From Gammaproteobacteria bacterium (GTDB taxonomy: Bacteria > Pseudomonadota > Gammaproteobacteria > Xanthomonadales > Wenzhouxiangellaceae): DNA of 64,000 nucleotides. This document shows, in pieces, positions 36,182 through 51,869 of the stretch. The notes under the pieces were generated by a model that made no database searches, was not told the origin of the DNA, and was given only the letters and a program-made list of their open reading frames with translations. Where the stretch lies: the NCBI GenBank assembly GCA_021772975.1, contig JAJFKY010000001.1:1-64000 (forward strand), written 5' to 3'. The position numbers were made by a program, and so were the translations under genes. How positions within the stretch are numbered: the first letter of the stretch is position 1; the number at the start of each line of letters is the position of its first letter.

Positions 36182-38419
36182 CTAGAAATTACGTTGATTA
36201 ATTCCAAATAAATCGTATGGCTGCCGGCCCAGGCTACCCAGACCTTTCAAGTGCAGTTCCACAAACACCCCCACCTGATCACTGCCATCACGAGCATTGA
36301 CAAATTCGCGGCCAATGAGTTGCAAAGCCCAGCAGCAGCTCTCGTATTCAAAACCCAGTACCGCTTCCAGCGTGGTGTTATCGCGGAAGGAATAGTTCCA
36401 GCGGCCAAGCAGATTCCAGGAATCGGAAATCGGATAACGCACCCGTACGTCGAACTGGTCGACCTGCCGGGTGCGGAAACGATAGCCGGTCTGGACCCGC
36501 AAACCACTCTCGCCGATATAGCTCAAACCCAGCAAGCCGACGTCAATCTCGGTGTCTTCCGGGTCATATTGAATTCCGGCGGTAACCGCCCAGTTGGAAA
36601 ACGGCCGGTAATTGACTTCCGCCAGCACCGCCGAGCTCTCAAAACTGGTGGCCGCCACGCCGGGTAACTGTACCTGCTGATCTTCAAAAAACAGAATCTG
36701 CCCGAGGGTGACATCCAGATACTGACGACCGGTATTGCCATCGATCAAACGCGAAGTTACCGCCCAGGACAGCTGGTTGGTATCGGACTGCCGATCAGCA
36801 CCGGTAAAACGATTGGTGTTAAACAGCTGACTGACACCGAAGGTGAGTTCGGCGGTATCAAAATCCGGCAGATCGTTCTGCTCCTCAAACGGTACGTAGG
36901 CGTAAAACAGCCGCGGTTCCAGCGTGATCCGGTCACCACTGTCCAAATCGCGCTCAAAAATCAGCCCCCCGTCGATGCTTAAAATTGGTACTGCCCGGGA
37001 CGGGCTGCTATCCAGCAACGGCACGGTCGATTCATCCAGATCACTCAGGGTGTAGGCGGTATAGCGGAAGCCTGCGCGCGGCTCGATAAACCAGCCGGGA
37101 CGCTCGTAGCGCCATTCGACCGTCGGATAGATATCCAGCCGTCCACCCACCGGTCCGACATCGCGTTCGAAGTAAACCGCTTCACTGTCCAGTACAAAAT
37201 CCAGATTACCGACGATGTTGTAACGCCAGTCGGCGGTCAACCGGGGTAAGCGTGAATAAGGTTCGGCGGTATCGGGAATACTGCTGTCCAGTTCCTGGAA
37301 ATCATCAAACACCAGCGCGGTATTCCAGCCACGGCCGCTGGCATACAAACCAAAGTCACTGCGCAAAAACGAAATGGTCGTTTCGTTGATATCCGCGCCA
37401 AAGTTCAAAAAGTAATCTTCGTCACTGACTCGATGCACATTCAAACGTGACACAATGCCGCGCCCCAACCGATAGTTAGCCTGAGTGCGGTAACGATAGC
37501 GGTCCCGGCCGGCAAACTCGTCATCCCCGGGCAGATAGTCACCGTCCAGCACGCCATTGGCGCGGGAAGTCAAAAACCGATACTCCGCCCCCAGCGCCGC
37601 ACCGCGGCCGGAAATAAAACGGGGGATAATCGTAGCGTCCATATTGGGTGCAATATTCCAGTAATACGGCCATGCAAACGCCACCCCGTTATCCGATGTG
37701 GTGCTGAAACTGGGATACAGAAAACCGGATTTGCGCCGGTCATCCAGGGGAAAACTGATCCACGGCAGAAACATCAGCGGCACACCCTGAAAACGCAGGG
37801 TGGCATTACGCGCGGTGCCCACGCCGGCTTCACGATCCAGCTTGACCCGCGCGGCGGATAACTCCCAGGCAGGCTCGTCACCCGGGCAGGTGGTAAAATC
37901 AATACTGGTCAGGCGGGCAATCCCCCCCGATTCCAGCAACACGCTCTGCGCCCTGCCATTGGCGGTACTGCCAACCACTTCAAATTCGACTTCATTGAAA
38001 CTGGCGCTGCCGTCGGCGATAACGTAGGCGGCATTCTGCGCGCGCACCACGTAATCCTGATCGCGGTAGCTCAACGCTTCGGGCAGGACCACCTCGCCGA
38101 TACTGCGGTCATACAGCAGCCGGCCCGTCTCGACCTGCTGATCAGCACGCTCCAGCAATACGCTGCCGATAAACTCCGACTGTCCGAAACGCTCCAGATC
38201 AATTTCATCGGCATTCACGTAGACCGGCTGACCAACGCGGTTGGGTGTGGGGCCGCTGCGATTCATGCGTACATCATCGGTGCAGGTGGCGGCCACCGCG
38301 GTGCTGTCACTATCGCCCTGGTTGATACCACTGAATTGTGCCGCAGCGCCGGTCGCGATCACACACAGGATCAACAGACTCGCTCGGAGGGTATGGCTGA
38401 CAGGCAACAGGAAATCCAA
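36182..38419 (-). CDS. lptD: LPS-assembly protein LptD
   Basis: OstA-like N-domain, FLPWISFPLDDRRKSGFLYPSF motif, beta-barrel C-terminus; next to surA. Confidence 0.94.
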   Translation of the reverse strand: MDFLLPVSHTLRASLLILCVIATGAAAQFSGINQGDSDSTAVAATCTDDVRMNRSGPTPNRVGQPVYVNADEIDLERFGQSEFIGSVLLERADQQVETGRLLYDRSIGEVVLPEALSYRDQDYVVRAQNAAYVIADGSASFNEVEFEVVGSTANGRAQSVLLESGGIARLTSIDFTTCPGDEPAWELSAARVKLDREAGVGTARNATLRFQGVPLMFLPWISFPLDDRRKSGFLYPSFSTTSDNGVAFAWPYYWNIAPNMDATIIPRFISGRGAALGAEYRFLTSRANGVLDGDYLPGDDEFAGRDRYRYRTQANYRLGRGIVSRLNVHRVSDEDYFLNFGADINETTISFLRSDFGLYASGRGWNTALVFDDFQELDSSIPDTAEPYSRLPRLTADWRYNIVGNLDFVLDSEAVYFERDVGPVGGRLDIYPTVEWRYERPGWFIEPRAGFRYTAYTLSDLDESTVPLLDSSPSRAVPILSIDGGLIFERDLDSGDRITLEPRLFYAYVPFEEQNDLPDFDTAELTFGVSQLFNTNRFTGADRQSDTNQLSWAVTSRLIDGNTGRQYLDVTLGQILFFEDQQVQLPGVAATSFESSAVLAEVNYRPFSNWAVTAGIQYDPEDTEIDVGLLGLSYIGESGLRVQTGYRFRTRQVDQFDVRVRYPISDSWNLLGRWNYSFRDNTTLEAVLGFEYESCCWALQLIGREFVNARDGSDQVGVFVELHLKGLGSLGRQPYDLFGINQRNF

Positions 38420-38451
38420 CGAAAAAATAAGCTGCTATTGTAAGCCCAGTT

Positions 38452-39648
38452 TCATTGCGCTGCACACAGCACAGCCGGATTGGGGTAACCACCTTGCAGC
38501 CAGGCCTCGCGTTGTGCGGCGGGCCACTCGCCAATGCTGACGGCAGCCTGGTAAAAGGCAGCCAGGTCATAACGGTTGCAAATCAGCAGTTCAGTAAACG
38601 CCGCCACGCCCTGCTGATAAGTCGCCTGCAGTGCTAAATGGGCGTTGTTCAACGGCTGTGCAAACCATTCTCGCCAGGCCAGCAGGCCGCGCAGCAGGTC
38701 CGGATTCAACTCAGCGGCGCCGAGTTCATCCAGATAGGCCAGGCGCAGATCCATAAACACCTGCTGTTTGGCCTGCAGTGCCTGTTCCTGATCAGGGCTG
38801 GCGCGATCCGCCGCCTGGGCATAGATCCGCTGCAACTGACTGCGTGCGGATGTCAGCAGTTGATTAACCACGCTGTCCGCCTGCTGCCAGGCCTGCCAGC
38901 GCAGCAGCAGCGGATCAGGCGCCTGATCCGCTGGTGACCGATGCAGGCGTAGCCAGCGCGCCACGCCCTCGTTGGCAACGGTTTCCGCAAAGGCTTCGTT
39001 AAACCCGGTGGAACCGGCCACAAACAGTTGCTGATGGGCCAGTTCGTGAAAAATCAGACTGCCCAGCACCGGTTCCAGATAATCATCTGAATACGCCAGC
39101 ATGGTGTTGAGCACCGGATCATCAAACCAACCCAGGGTTGAATAAGCCGTTGCCGGACTGATCAGCACATCCAGTTCCCGGGCATGCAGCTGCCGTGCTT
39201 CACGCAGCGCTGAACTGCGCCGGTACCAGCCACGATAAGCCAGGCAGCCAGCCAGTGGATAACACCAGGTATGTGGTTGCAAAGACAGTGGCGGGGTTGC
39301 GATCACATTCCAGACCACCGCATCGCGCTGCAGATCGGCATAGCTGCGGTAACTGCCATTATCCGGCAAACCCAGCTCCGCACTGGCGAAATTCCGCAGC
39401 CGCAACGCCAGTTCCAGCTTAGCGCGCAAAGCCTCCGGCGTATCCGGGTCGCCGAGCAGTTCACTGATCGGCTCACGCTTTGACAATAAATCCAGATGCC
39501 CGCCCACCGCCTGAAACGTCCAGCGTACGCTCGTGCAACCGGCCAGAGCCGCTAACAGCACGGTAGCCATCAGCGCTGCGATGGCTAACAATAGCGTTCT
39601 TGGCGAAATTTTTTCGCGGCGTTTTTTATAAGCAGGTAAATGAAGCAT
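38452..39648 (-). CDS. Putative zinc aminopeptidase lipoprotein
   Basis: Lipobox LAALAGC; SLIFHELAHQQLFVAGSTGFNEAFAETVANEG (HExxH plus downstream E). Confidence 0.8.
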   Translation of the reverse strand: MLHLPAYKKRREKISPRTLLLAIAALMATVLLAALAGCTSVRWTFQAVGGHLDLLSKREPISELLGDPDTPEALRAKLELALRLRNFASAELGLPDNGSYRSYADLQRDAVVWNVIATPPLSLQPHTWCYPLAGCLAYRGWYRRSSALREARQLHARELDVLISPATAYSTLGWFDDPVLNTMLAYSDDYLEPVLGSLIFHELAHQQLFVAGSTGFNEAFAETVANEGVARWLRLHRSPADQAPDPLLLRWQAWQQADSVVNQLLTSARSQLQRIYAQAADRASPDQEQALQAKQQVFMDLRLAYLDELGAAELNPDLLRGLLAWREWFAQPLNNAHLALQATYQQGVAAFTELLICNRYDLAAFYQAAVSIGEWPAAQREAWLQGGYPNPAVLCAAQ

Positions 39649-43913: not shown

Positions 43914-44753
43914 TCAGTCCAACCGGCCCGGGTCCTTATTGGACAGTTGGTTAATACCGGCAAGCAGCCCTTCAGCACACCACTGGGTTAAATAATCAAC
44001 CATCCGCTGACCAATCCGCGGCGCCGGATAATATCCGGTCAGGCTGGCGCACAGCCAGGCGAAATCCCGCCCTGCCAGCATAGCCTCCAGTAAACCATGC
44101 TCGTGGCCGGTCAGTGAGCGGAACTGCGTCAAGCGGTCACGATCACGCCACACCAGCCAGGCTTGCGCGTCCGCAGCGTCCAGCTGGGCGGCGGCCGGTG
44201 GCGGGCGCTCCGCCTTGATGGCCTGCCAGCTCGCCACGCTGTTCCAGTGCGCGCTGAAAAACTGCACGCTGGGATGTAACCGCAGCTGCATGCCCGGCCA
44301 CTGTTCAGCCGGCAGGGCCTGTACTTCCGAAAAATCCACGCGGCGCTGATCAGGCGCATCAAAACTGTCCAGCAGGATATTCTCAAACGCGGCAATCTCA
44401 GCCAGTATCGGATGGTCCGAGAAGGGTTTGTTGCCGCGCAGGTAAGCAGGCAGAGCGCGGCAAAAATACCGTAGCGACCGCACCTGCGAAGGGTGTTGCC
44501 CAAGATAGCCCTGCCATAACCTGGCAAACCACTCATCACCCAGATAAGTACACAGCACCGGGTGGTCGGTTTCGATCACTTTCCGTAAGCGCACCCGATA
44601 AGCGTTGGCATAGATTTCCAGGCGTTGTGCCGGGCTGATGCTGCCTTGCTCCACCACCTGATCCTGCAGCTCATGGGCTTCGTTTGATGGCTGCCGCTGG
44701 AGGTAATCCAAAAACTGATGCTGCAACCGGGCAAGCGAAACAGGCGCTGACAT
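43914..44753 (-). CDS. DUF2063-family protein (BufC/HvfC-like partner)
   Basis: QRLEIYANAYRVRLRKVIETDHPVLCTYLGDEWFARLWQGYL, directly downstream of a DUF692 gene. Confidence 0.87.
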   Translation of the reverse strand: MSAPVSLARLQHQFLDYLQRQPSNEAHELQDQVVEQGSISPAQRLEIYANAYRVRLRKVIETDHPVLCTYLGDEWFARLWQGYLGQHPSQVRSLRYFCRALPAYLRGNKPFSDHPILAEIAAFENILLDSFDAPDQRRVDFSEVQALPAEQWPGMQLRLHPSVQFFSAHWNSVASWQAIKAERPPPAAAQLDAADAQAWLVWRDRDRLTQFRSLTGHEHGLLEAMLAGRDFAWLCASLTGYYPAPRIGQRMVDYLTQWCAEGLLAGINQLSNKDPGRLD

Positions 44754-44763
44754 AAACGTTTAA

Positions 44764-45657
44764 CTAAGCTGCTCTGGTGACGACCGAGCGGCTGTCCAGT
44801 TCGGGAAAAATCTCCACCGCCAGTTGCCTGGCCTGCTGTAACTCGGTATATAGATTCGCAAAGGGAGGAATGTGGTCGTCACGTTCCAGCAGTGTGCTGA
44901 CCGGGCCAAAGCGTTGCAGCGCACGCTGATACAGCTGCCAGACGGGATCAGGTACCGCCTGATCATGGGTGTCCACCACATAATCCCCATGATCAGTATG
45001 CCCGGCCAGATGAAATTGACGTACCCGGGCGGGATCAACGCCATGCAGATAGTCGAGTGGGTCAAAAGCATGATTGCGGGCGCTGACATACACATTGTTG
45101 AGATCAAATAACATCAGCGCATCAGCCCGCTCCACCACCTCACGATAAAACGCCCACTCGGTCATCTCAGATTGCTGATAAGTCAGGTAGCTGGAAACAT
45201 TTTCCAGCAGTAATTGCCGGCCCAGAAAATCCTGCACCTGACTGATACGGTCCACTACATGCGCGATGGTTTGGTCATCGTAGGGTAGCGGTAACAGGTC
45301 ATGACTGTTAACGCCACCGGCAATAGTGAAACACAGATGATCGGATATCCACTCCGGCTGCACATCGTTGGCCAGCGTTTTGAGCTGTCTGAGGTAATCC
45401 CAGTCCAGCGGATCGGTGCTGCCGATGGACAATGACACACCATGCATCACCACTGGATAATGTTCGCGGATACTGGTGAGGTAATGGCGGGGCTTGCCGC
45501 CCGCCACCATGAAGTTTTCAGAAATGACTTCGAACCAGTCCACCGCCGGGCGATGCTCCAGCACATACTGGAAATGCACCGTCCGCAGGCCCAGTCCAAA
45601 ACCTAGAAACGGACGCTCCAGCGGTTCTGTCCGTTCACTGTGTATGTTATCCATCAA
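44764..45657 (-). CDS. DUF692-family (MbnB/BufB-like) iron-dependent RiPP-modifying enzyme
   Basis: FLGFGLGLRTVHF, DWFEVISENFM, HGVSLSIGSTDPLD, ISDHLCF, LLLENVSSYL, LFDLNNVYVSARNHAFDPLDYL, LAGHTD. Confidence 0.92.
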   Translation of the reverse strand: MMDNIHSERTEPLERPFLGFGLGLRTVHFQYVLEHRPAVDWFEVISENFMVAGGKPRHYLTSIREHYPVVMHGVSLSIGSTDPLDWDYLRQLKTLANDVQPEWISDHLCFTIAGGVNSHDLLPLPYDDQTIAHVVDRISQVQDFLGRQLLLENVSSYLTYQQSEMTEWAFYREVVERADALMLFDLNNVYVSARNHAFDPLDYLHGVDPARVRQFHLAGHTDHGDYVVDTHDQAVPDPVWQLYQRALQRFGPVSTLLERDDHIPPFANLYTELQQARQLAVEIFPELDSRSVVTRAA

Positions 45658-45691
45658 CGCCTAACGGTCCAGACTGCTCACTACTCACCAA

Positions 45692-45711
45692 CGGAGGGCC
45701 AAAGCCCTCCG
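45692..45711. promoter_or_regulatory. Intercistronic hairpin between precursor and DUF692 genes
   Basis: CGGAGGGC-caaa-GCCCTCCG perfect 8-bp stem. Confidence 0.7.
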
Positions 45712-45744
45712 CCAGATAGCTTAGTGTCCCATCCAGGCAGGTTA

Positions 45745-46203
45745 TCAGGGACCAACCTTGCCGCCCACATCAGCACAGGCTTTAGCACCCATGGCAACAA
45801 ATCCGGTACCTTTGCAGGAACCCTGACCGGCACAGGCATGTTCGGCCGTGGCGCAGTCATTGTGTCCACCGCAGACATTCACGCCATAGCAATGAATCAG
45901 ATCAGCCTTGGCCACGCTGCCTCGCCATTCATCACTGACTTCACCGCCGATATCGGCGCAGGCCTTGGATGGCATGCCTACAAATCCGGTGCCTTTGCAG
46001 GAACCCTGACCGGCACAGGCATGCTCGGCTGAGGCACAGTCGTTGTGACCGCCACAGGTATTAACGCCGTAGCAATGAACCAGATCCGTGCTGTCTGAAT
46101 CAACTGCCGTGGCGCCCACCGCATCGGACTGGTTGCTGGCGCAACCGGCGGCCATCATAGCCAACGCGACGCCCGAAAATGCGGGTGTGATTACATGTTT
46201 CAT
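45745..46203 (-). CDS. Bufferin-like Cys-rich RiPP precursor, predicted lipoprotein, two 6-Cys cores
   Basis: 152 aa; AMMAAGC lipobox-like; two copies of [33 protein letters not shown]...KACADxGG; upstream of DUF692 and DUF2063 genes; ATG at 46203. Confidence 0.85.
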
Positions 46204-46447
46204 AATAAAATCTCCATACAGGTTTTGGTCTATTATTGAATGATGAGTCAGCCCCGAGCATTCAGGCACTGCTGGCGACATAAACCGGCAATATCCCGGT
46301 TTGCTTTCGGCGCATCGGCAATTAGCCAATAGTTGTACAGCCTACCACGACTCTAAAACGGCTGTCGGGTGAGCTTCGGTCAGGCTTGCATCAGCGAATC
46401 ACCAACACCATAACAGGGGTTTGCAACAGTCATATCACGATGCCCCT

Positions 46448-47936: not shown

Positions 47937-49476
47937 TTAGGACTTCGCCATCACTGTCCCGCTGACGCTGGTCTGATTATTGTCCTGATCAGGATCGTAA
48001 GTACCAGAAGATACGCCGACGGCGGTGCTGATTGCACCCATGCTATTAGCCCTGGTATTGATATTGATAGTCACTGAACCTGACGAGGCCAGCGCGGTTC
48101 CACTGCAACTGACCTGCTGGCCGGTGTGATTGCAGCTGATGCCCGCGCCAGCCCGGACCGCCAGGATGGACAGCCTGGCTGGCAGCGTGACGCTGACCAC
48201 ATAATCAGCAGCGTCATCCGGGCCGTCGTTATAAACATCGACCTTATAGTTCAGAACATTACCGACAATCACCTGCTGAGTGGAGGGGGTAAGGTTGACG
48301 CTCAGGTCACTACTGAAAGGTTCTACCTGCATGCTAAGCACCGACCAGTTATTGTCTGACACCGGATCGTTACTGCCGGCGTTGACCTCAACCCTGTTGG
48401 TGAATACGCCATCGGTATTCGGGGTAACCGTGATTTCAGCTGAAGCCTTGGCGCCGCTGGCCAGGGAACTGGCGATACAGGCAATCTGATTGACGATTCT
48501 GGCGCAATTGACACCTGGACCAGGGTTGATCGAATTAATGCTCAACTCAACCGGCACAATGTCCGTAATCACCAGATTGGCGGCTTGATCAGGGCCGTTA
48601 TTGCTCACTTCAATGGTGTACGTGAGTGGTTCACCAATAATAACCGGGCTGCGGGTTGCATCTAAGCCTACCGATAAATCCGCGCTGACGGATTCCGCGC
48701 AATCGGTGACTGCCGCGCTGCTTCTGCCGAAAGCCACATCTCCGCTCAACTCGATATCAAATACAGAGACATCGAATACCACCCGCAAGGCAGTGGTGAC
48801 AATCCGTAACTCATCCTGGCCGTTGCCGGTTATGATCTGCTCATTCAGCACAATCATGGTGCCCGGCCAGCCCAGCGGATCGAGATCGATCACGGTATTG
48901 GGTTCCGGGTCTTCCGGCAGCGCCATGACATTGTCATCAATGCTGACTTCAGCATTAATTAATGGTGCTGGATGCACTGGCCTGCAAATCGCCGCAACTG
49001 CCGGTAATGATTGATTCAGAGTTAACACTGCCGGCATCCACGAAGGTACCCGAACCCGGGCTATCGATAACCGCCGTCATGACATGTACGTCTTGCGCCT
49101 CACCCAAGCTGCTGGCGGTCAGAGTAGAGTCATCAAAGTTAACCATACCGGTCAGACTTCCGGATTCGACGATCACGATATCGGACAGATTGATAGCCAC
49201 TCCCTCCGCGCTCTCCTCCAATGGACCGTAACTGGCAATTCCCTGACTGTTCACCGCCGGCGCCGGCGCAAACTGCCCGTACTCGGAACCACCGGATAAT
49301 ATTTGCAGGTGAATATTAACTTCCCCGCCGTAACCACTGGTATAGGCTGTCTGCGCCCAACCGGCAGTGGCCGCGTAGCAACACAACATAGCGATCAGTA
49401 AAGTAACGACAGCATGACGTGATGAAACCCTTGCATAACCCCAGGGGATCACTTTTGAATGATGAAATGCTTTCAT
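47937..49476 (-). pseudogene. DUF11-repeat secreted protein split by frameshift (ORFs 48955..49476 and 47937..49037)
   Basis: The two ORFs together align along the intact paralogue at 49941-51509; break falls at ATTAATTAAT (48954-48963). Confidence 0.75.
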
Positions 49477-49940: not shown

Positions 49941-51509
49941 CTATGTACCCGGAACAGCGCCCCTGCGCCCCAGACCAAAGCTGATGTTGCTGCTGACACT
50001 GGCCTGATTATTACTGACATCAGAATCCGGCGTGGCTGAAGTAACACTGGCGGTATTGGTCACCATGCCGATGCTGTCCGCCCGGGTATTGATGATCACC
50101 GTCACCACCTCACCGGCCGGCAACGCCGCTCCACTGCAGCTCACCTGCTGACCGAACTGGCTGCAATCTACCCCCGCAGCGGCGTTGATCGAGACAATGC
50201 TCAACTGCTCGGGCAGCACATCATCGATCACATATGCGACCGCCTCAGCAGGCCCGGTATTCTCAACCTGAATGGTGTAGTTGAGCGCCGCGCCCACACT
50301 GACGCCGCCATCGGACGCGCTCAGGCTTAGACTCAGATCGGCCTCATCAGGCAGAACTTCCGTGCTGACAACCGCCACATTATTACTGCCGTCCGGGTCA
50401 CTGCTCTCGGCATACGCTTCAACACTGTTGCTGATAGTCCCGGGCGCTTGCGGAATAACCGATAGCGTCACATTAGCGGTATCGCCGACCTCCAACAGTT
50501 CAGCCACACAGATCACCTGCTGCGTAATCTGGGCACAGTTAAGCCCTGCTGCTGGTTCAATCGATGCGATGCTCAGTGTGTCATCCAGGGCATCGGTTAT
50601 GACCAGGTTAATCGCCGGATCGGGGCCTGAATTGGTGACCTCAATGCGGTATTCCAGAGCTTGCCCCACCACCACTGAATCGGCGGAAGCCACCTGGTTT
50701 AAGGCCAGATCGGCAACGCCCGGTTCCAGGCAATCAGTCACCCTGGCTGTACTGCTGCCGAAAATGACATCGCCGCTGAGACTGGCGCCCGGCTGGGCTA
50801 TGTTGAATCTGATACGCATGGCATTAACGATTACCCGCATTTCACCCAGGCTATTCTGAGTAATGGTCTGCTCGTTAAGGGTAACCACCGTGCCGGCCCA
50901 GCCCAGCAGGCCAAGATCGAGCCTGGTATTGGGTGATGGATTCTGCGGCAGATTGATCAGCACGCCATCAATATTGACAATGCCATTGACAATGCTGCTG
51001 ACCGGATTGGCCACCAGCGAACCACAACTGCCGAATATCAGAGCCTCAGAACTGACGCTGTCAGCCACTATGAAAGTACCGTCGTTGAAGCTGTCCACCA
51101 GTGCGGTACTGATGAATATATTGTCAGCCTGACCTATACCGCTGACGCGCCCGGCGCTCTGGTCATAGCTAACCGAACCATGCAGACTGCCCGATTCCAC
51201 TATCGCCAGTTCGGATAGATCAATAGCCACGCCGGCAGCACTATCCTGCAACGGGCCATAATCAGACTGGCCTTGTCCGGAAACCACCGGGGCCGGCAGA
51301 AAAACACCCTGCTGGGAACCGCCGGGTCCTAACTCCAGCCGGATATTAACTTCCGCCCCGCTGGCCCGGCTGAAGGCCGTATCTGCCCAGCCTGGTGTGG
51401 CCGCGCAGGTATACAACAAGATCAGAGCGGTAGAGAAAATTACGAAGCGTGGTGCATTCCTTATGCACAGAAAAACGGACAACATTGAAGAATCAAATGC
51501 TTTCATCAT
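49941..51509 (-). CDS. Secreted DUF11-repeat (conserved repeat domain) protein
   Basis: Signal peptide; ADLALNQVASADSVVVGQALEYRIEVTNSGPDPAINLVITDAL and a second DUF11 unit; start set to MMKAFDSSML. Confidence 0.8.
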   Translation of the reverse strand: MMKAFDSSMLSVFLCIRNAPRFVIFSTALILLYTCAATPGWADTAFSRASGAEVNIRLELGPGGSQQGVFLPAPVVSGQGQSDYGPLQDSAAGVAIDLSELAIVESGSLHGSVSYDQSAGRVSGIGQADNIFISTALVDSFNDGTFIVADSVSSEALIFGSCGSLVANPVSSIVNGIVNIDGVLINLPQNPSPNTRLDLGLLGWAGTVVTLNEQTITQNSLGEMRVIVNAMRIRFNIAQPGASLSGDVIFGSSTARVTDCLEPGVADLALNQVASADSVVVGQALEYRIEVTNSGPDPAINLVITDALDDTLSIASIEPAAGLNCAQITQQVICVAELLEVGDTANVTLSVIPQAPGTISNSVEAYAESSDPDGSNNVAVVSTEVLPDEADLSLSLSASDGGVSVGAALNYTIQVENTGPAEAVAYVIDDVLPEQLSIVSINAAAGVDCSQFGQQVSCSGAALPAGEVVTVIINTRADSIGMVTNTASVTSATPDSDVSNNQASVSSNISFGLGRRGAVPGT

Positions 51510-51869
51510 GTACTCCTTTACATGTCCGGCGGCAGGCCTATGACTGCCGCCATTTTTCGCAGCGCTGGCCAATGGCTGAACATTCCTTTATCCAGCCGGG
51601 ATCAGACAGTTGATGCGCTGATCCCTTATTACAGGCACGTTACAGGCCAGCACCCTGATGTACACCGTAGAGCGGCGCACATAATATATATAGGCCTATA
51701 GTTGGGATAAAGCAACCGAGGCAGCGAATATTTTACGGTTGCTTGCAAATCAGCTCCGGCGGCGCAACTTGCTTTAACTGTCGCCCGATGAGCTGCTGGT
51801 TAGGCTTTTTTGGATCGGCATGCGAAACTAGCCCGAATAACCTGAAGCAACAGCACGTTACAGTAAGCC

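Follow-up and report, generated by a model that had tools for sequence, protein, structure and literature searches.

The window, i.e., the whole stretch of 64,000 nucleotides analysed here, carries on its minus strand a Cys-rich precursor gene followed by the genes for an MNIO (DUF692) enzyme and for a DUF2063 partner, three ORFs that an earlier reading of the letters alone (hereafter, the sequence-only reading) had placed in this order and at the same coordinates. The first gene, bufA2 (45745..46203), is assigned from its match to NF050166 and from alignment, and encodes from an ATG start a bufferin-2 precursor of 152 aa with 12 Cys in addition to a lipobox Cys. The second gene, bufB (44764..45654), is assigned from NF050167, PF05114 and aligned active-site residues, and encodes an MNIO maturase of 296 aa counted from an ATG; the listed enzyme ORF (45657-44764) opens with a TTG, and the in-frame ATG at 45654 is the likelier start. 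The third gene, bufC (43914..44753), encodes a partner of 279 aa recognised as DUF2063 (PME-type 1) by PF09836. The operon, which comprises no DoxX gene, is flanked by hslU and by the gene for DNA polymerase IV, and as this synteny is common to the window and the two nearest relatives, it points to a stable chromosomal locus within the group. Elsewhere on the minus strand, two adjacent genes (47937-49037 and 49941-51572) code for secreted proteins that resemble each other and whose repeated domains look by eye like DUF11-type repeats.

The segment between the precursor and enzyme genes (45658..45744, minus strand), when folded, forms a strong hairpin, GGAGGGC TTT GGCCCTCC, which may act as a step-down of expression between the precursor and the enzymes. 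Comparable hairpins are present in some relatives (L036, L029, L048, and L070) and absent from the nearest two (L025 and L026), which speaks against a conserved element; hairpins found at the same intergenic place in several relatives are unrelated to that of the window. On the other side of bufA2, ~75-110 bases before its start codon (window ~46270-46350, minus strand), lies a stretch resembling GAAAGCAAA...GGATA..GCCGGTT..TATG, which is found again in L025 and L026 and is a possible promoter or regulator site. A promoter/terminator scan of the window locus returned no more hits than chance, and a search of Rfam gave no match.

In the precursor, the spacing C-x5-C-x5-C-x6-C-x5-C-x12-C is found in exactly two places (residues 44-82 and 105-143), within two core units of 49 residues and six Cys each (unit 1, 45937..46083; unit 2, 45754..45900), which are defined by this spacing and separated by a linker (45901..45936). 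Shuffling the mature precursor sequence 100,000 times produced even one such six-Cys spacing in only 3 cases, and the repeat is thus not a matter of chance. The two units are identical at 41 of 49 residues in the protein and at 81% in the DNA, and the 12 core Cys are all invariant across the 49 precursors aligned, i.e., the window and 48 relatives. The 13th Cys is Cys21, where the N-terminal signal (46141..46203) ends; the paired 49-residue units and the extra lipobox-like Cys described by the sequence-only reading are both confirmed. Against the NCBIfam model NF050166 (Cu_RiPP_BufA2), the precursor scores 131.9 bits in two stretches for a cut-off of 60. Its predicted structure consists of two repeated small domains with a mean pLDDT of 67, lower at the N-terminus and in part of unit 1; no match was found to PDB folds at E values up to 10, nor to PDB sequences.

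The N-terminus has the charged start and the hydrophobic stretch of a Sec-type signal, together with a match at Cys21 to the PROSITE lipobox pattern PS51257, a sequence pattern only, which was taken as indicating a lipoprotein when its Cys lay at position 15-35. The context, AAGC, makes for a weak lipobox, with Ala at position -3 instead of the Leu (L-x-G-C) found in most lipobox relatives. Residue +2 after Cys21 is Ala, which in lipoproteins of Escherichia coli would permit sorting to the outer membrane. As such, the lipoprotein-like signal of the sequence-only reading holds as regards Cys21, and the anchor it predicted is reasonable, with the reservation that the lipobox is weak; from the sequence, the precursor is probably lipidated at Cys21.

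The enzyme scores 373.2 bits against the BufB model NF050167 (cut-off 310) and 372.5 bits against Pfam PF05114 (MbnB_TglH_ChrH, formerly DUF692), in line with the earlier assignment to DUF692, and aligns with the solved MNIO structures 3bww, TglH, and MbnB. The residue check against published work was confined to the Glu/Asp/His ligand positions and the catalytic Asp, where the Glu of LLLEN and the Asp and His of VDTHDQ align with the iron ligands Glu135, Asp209, and His211 of VcMbnB, and where the catalytic Asp, as named for FonB, is kept within ERDD. Three other positions of BufB, namely Ala for Cys, Phe for Leu, and Val for Ile, set the window's clade apart from more than 90% of the 12-Cys relatives, and sit in or beside the metal-site motifs LFDLNN and VDTHD. 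The partner scores 66.7 bits against PF09836 (cut-off 27.2), which bears out its reading as DUF2063; its RRE-like C-terminal half scores 21.4 bits against NGO1945_C, below the cut-off of 27, and no BufC-specific model was among its profile matches. Two other identities were considered and rejected for the operon. That of an oxazolin (HvfA/HvfB) system fails on the absence of EGKCG from the precursor, on the score of 268 of the enzyme against HvfB (cut-off 360) and on that of 49 bits of the partner against the HvfC model (cut-off 142), and that of a methanobactin system on the 66.1 bits of the enzyme against the MbnB model TIGR04159 (cut-off 325).

The identity and order of the genes, the Cys pattern, and the conservation of catalytic residues are all observed at the locus, which is very probably a bufferin-2 (Buf2, formerly BUF_6/12Cys) operon, whose product would be a lipidated, copper-buffering two-domain peptide; the bufferin identity proposed by the sequence-only reading is thereby sustained, precursor and enzyme both exceeding the curated cut-offs of NF050166 and NF050167. 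By analogy with the family, from which modification, lipidation, location, and copper function are deduced, a BufB-BufC complex would bind the precursor in the cytoplasm via the signal-peptide leader, the N-terminal signal probably doubling as recognition leader in the light of a published discussion (PMC12452194). Several core Cys would then be oxidised by BufBC with the loss of 4 H each, very probably to 5-thiooxazoles, and Sec would export the modified peptide. Given the lipobox-like Cys of the signal, Lgt and LspA are proposed to act next, probably lipidating Cys21. The end product would be a two-domain copper-chelating lipoprotein held on the periplasmic side of a membrane, where it would buffer excess copper.

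The same bufferin operon could instead supply a precursor that is soluble in the periplasm, Cys21 staying unlipidated and signal peptidase I cutting the signal. The Ala at -3 would suit such an export, as would the plain Sec signals of about half of the 12-Cys relatives, including those of Shewanella and Microbulbifer, but the fit to PS51257 and the retention of Cys21 and of its AAGC context in both nearest relatives speak for the anchor, and the soluble form is considered rather unlikely. More improbable still is an operon devoted to another metal or stress than copper, e.g., gold, mercury, or an oxidant: among bufferins, MerC-Buf fusions and gig operons induced by gold have been reported (PMC12452194), and neither a copper regulator nor a recognisable copper-responsive site was identified beside the operon, yet the characterised members of both Buf1 and Buf2 act in copper stress (PMC12452194). 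The lipidated copper buffer is thus retained as the preferred reading.

This architecture has precedents. According to Antoine et al. (2025; PMC12452194), 90% of Buf2 precursors have 6 Cys, the rest having 12 in duplicated 6-Cys domains, and ~16% are predicted to carry lipoprotein signals; in the same work, the Buf2 of Caulobacter vibrioides exhibits a mass loss per Cys as in Buf1, a band at 305 nm, and a similar function. Lipidation itself has been shown for two MNIO products, bufferins being listed among the predicted ones (PMC12636315). Since 12-Cys duplicated precursors and Buf2 with lipoprotein signals are both published, every element that the sequence-only reading had found remarkable was already known, and the novelty it implied does not stand (PMC12452194, PMC12636315); the two recur together in about half of the 12-Cys relatives retrieved. 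The doubled core and the predicted lipid anchor are both common in marine gammaproteobacteria, and the locus is a good but ordinary example. Like other 12-Cys Buf2 (NF050166), it combines two six-Cys domains of equal Cys spacing, a Sec-type N-terminus, and the order precursor-MNIO-DUF2063, while differing from them by a Lys after only two of eight inner Cys, by a lipobox weaker than in most lipobox members, and by the lack of DoxX in the operon. With the lipidated MNIO products (DybA, NedA, and the lipobox bufferins; PMC12636315), it shares an MNIO-modified type of precursor with a lipoprotein signal, lipidation being predicted in the window, but it is a Buf2, unlike DybA, a chryseobasin-type macrocycle, and NedA, an EGKCG oxazolin. 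The oxazolin and fontiphorin operons (HvfABC and FonABC) likewise pair an MNIO with a DUF2063 partner and a Cys-rich Sec-exported precursor, which in their case carries EGKCG repeats, whereas the enzyme of the window falls below the HvfB cut-off.

Scanning one genome per species yielded 80 loci, and when these were pooled with whole-genome searches, 73 of the 93 records, a few genomes being in twice, had two units in one gene. The 12-Cys precursors come from Shewanella, Pseudoalteromonas, Microbulbifer, Colwellia, Oceanospirillaceae, and others, and PS51257 is found in 35 of the 68 distinct ones (named loci and window). Nearly all relatives have the A-B-C gene order. L043 departs from it, its contig being cut off within the enzyme gene, as do L005 and L104, in which the search located no partner at the expected position. 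In L092-L095 (Methylophaga and a Cycloclasticus symbiont), two or three consecutive one-unit BufA2 genes, rather than one two-unit gene, precede the MNIO gene, and some of these have a lengthened Cys pattern. The precursors nearest to that of the window belong to a Wenzhouxiangellaceae MAG (85% identical) and to another gammaproteobacterial MAG (82%). In the wider family the operon is rare, only the same-genus genome having matched above the cut-off among the family genomes searched.

The core had been described as a clean internal duplication, and a duplicated core it is, only not a recent one. Both units and the linker between them align across nearly all 12-Cys proteins, so that the duplication predates the lineage of the window. 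In a single-unit tree, the window and its two nearest relatives contribute six units, which cluster together (99/87 support) instead of separating into two groups by position, a result that, with 47 columns only, constitutes support and not proof. Across all loci, the mean likeness of the two units within one protein is 0.82, for 0.79 and 0.75 between corresponding units of different proteins. A recent clean duplication was rejected on the conserved alignment and on the clade-wise grouping of units, and what fits best is an old duplication whose units were later homogenised, the units of one protein looking alike because they would have evolved in concert. With a tree this short, repeated independent duplications are a less likely alternative.

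The most unusual feature of the locus, which had escaped the earlier reading, is its missing Cys-Lys pairs. Each unit has four inner Cys (C2-C5), eight in all, and in the window and its nearest relatives Lys follows only two of them, namely C5 of each unit (Cys69 and Cys130 in the window), for three to eight, most often six, in the other 12-Cys precursors; two such motifs are the lowest count among the 73 two-unit loci and are common only to the genus-level clade of the window. The group has been named Cys-Lys, and a contact of an enzyme Asp with the Lys was proposed from a model (PMC13097082); BufB of the window keeps this Asp (ERDD, Asp251 equivalent). Proteome-wide loss of Lys is not sufficient as a cause: Lys makes up 2.1% of the proteins of the window, 3.2-3.3% in L025 and L026, which show an equal loss, and 2.2% in L049, which nonetheless has more pairs. 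With six of eight inner Cys devoid of a following Lys, fewer Cys may be modified than usual. A stricter version, tentative and on the doubtful side, is that in this clade only C5 of each unit (the Cys of SCKG) is modified, the Lys for the enzyme Asp being missing after C2-C4, and that the other Cys form disulphides or metal-binding thiols. The low count of pairs and the retained Asp would agree with it, but Cys-Lys pairs are about as numerous in relatives whose enzyme has Ala or Gly instead of the Asp, so that no strict coupling of the Asp to their number is seen, and FonBC accepts Ala, Arg, or Thr in place of the Lys that flanks its Cys, albeit a Lys on the opposite side of that Cys. A Buf2 core that has lost almost all its Cys-Lys pairs while its enzyme keeps the Asp makes the proposal on MNIO substrate choice testable with an existing sequence, and is the sole part of the locus that merits a second look by specialists.

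A similar loss is met in the one other MNIO locus found in the genome (L002, contig 20, ~36,500-39,000), where genes for an HvfA-like precursor, HvfB, and HvfC are followed by DoxX and where the repeats of the precursor read EGSCG, not EGKCG. Searched as exact DNA patterns, paired E-G-S/T-C-G repeats turned up in 19 of the 36 family genomes searched, and the 24 genomes taken from other families of the order had none; paired EGKCG, conversely, was matched in 20 of these 24 and in 4 of the 36, the latter 4 being distinct from the 19. The string EGSCG did not come up in the main texts of the papers searched. As FonBC in vitro tolerates Ala, Arg, and Thr at the Lys position of EGKCG, EGSCG and EGTCG repeats should still be modified. 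It is conceivable, if rather speculative, that the lineage dropped the Lys next to modified Cys in two separate MNIO RiPPs, i.e., at C2-C4 in both units of the bufferin (in the window and its nearest relatives) and in the oxazolin-type repeats of many genomes of the family. If functional, this loss would alter either the charge of the metallophores of the lineage or the set of Cys modified in them, and would offer a natural experiment on the selection of Cys by MNIO enzymes.
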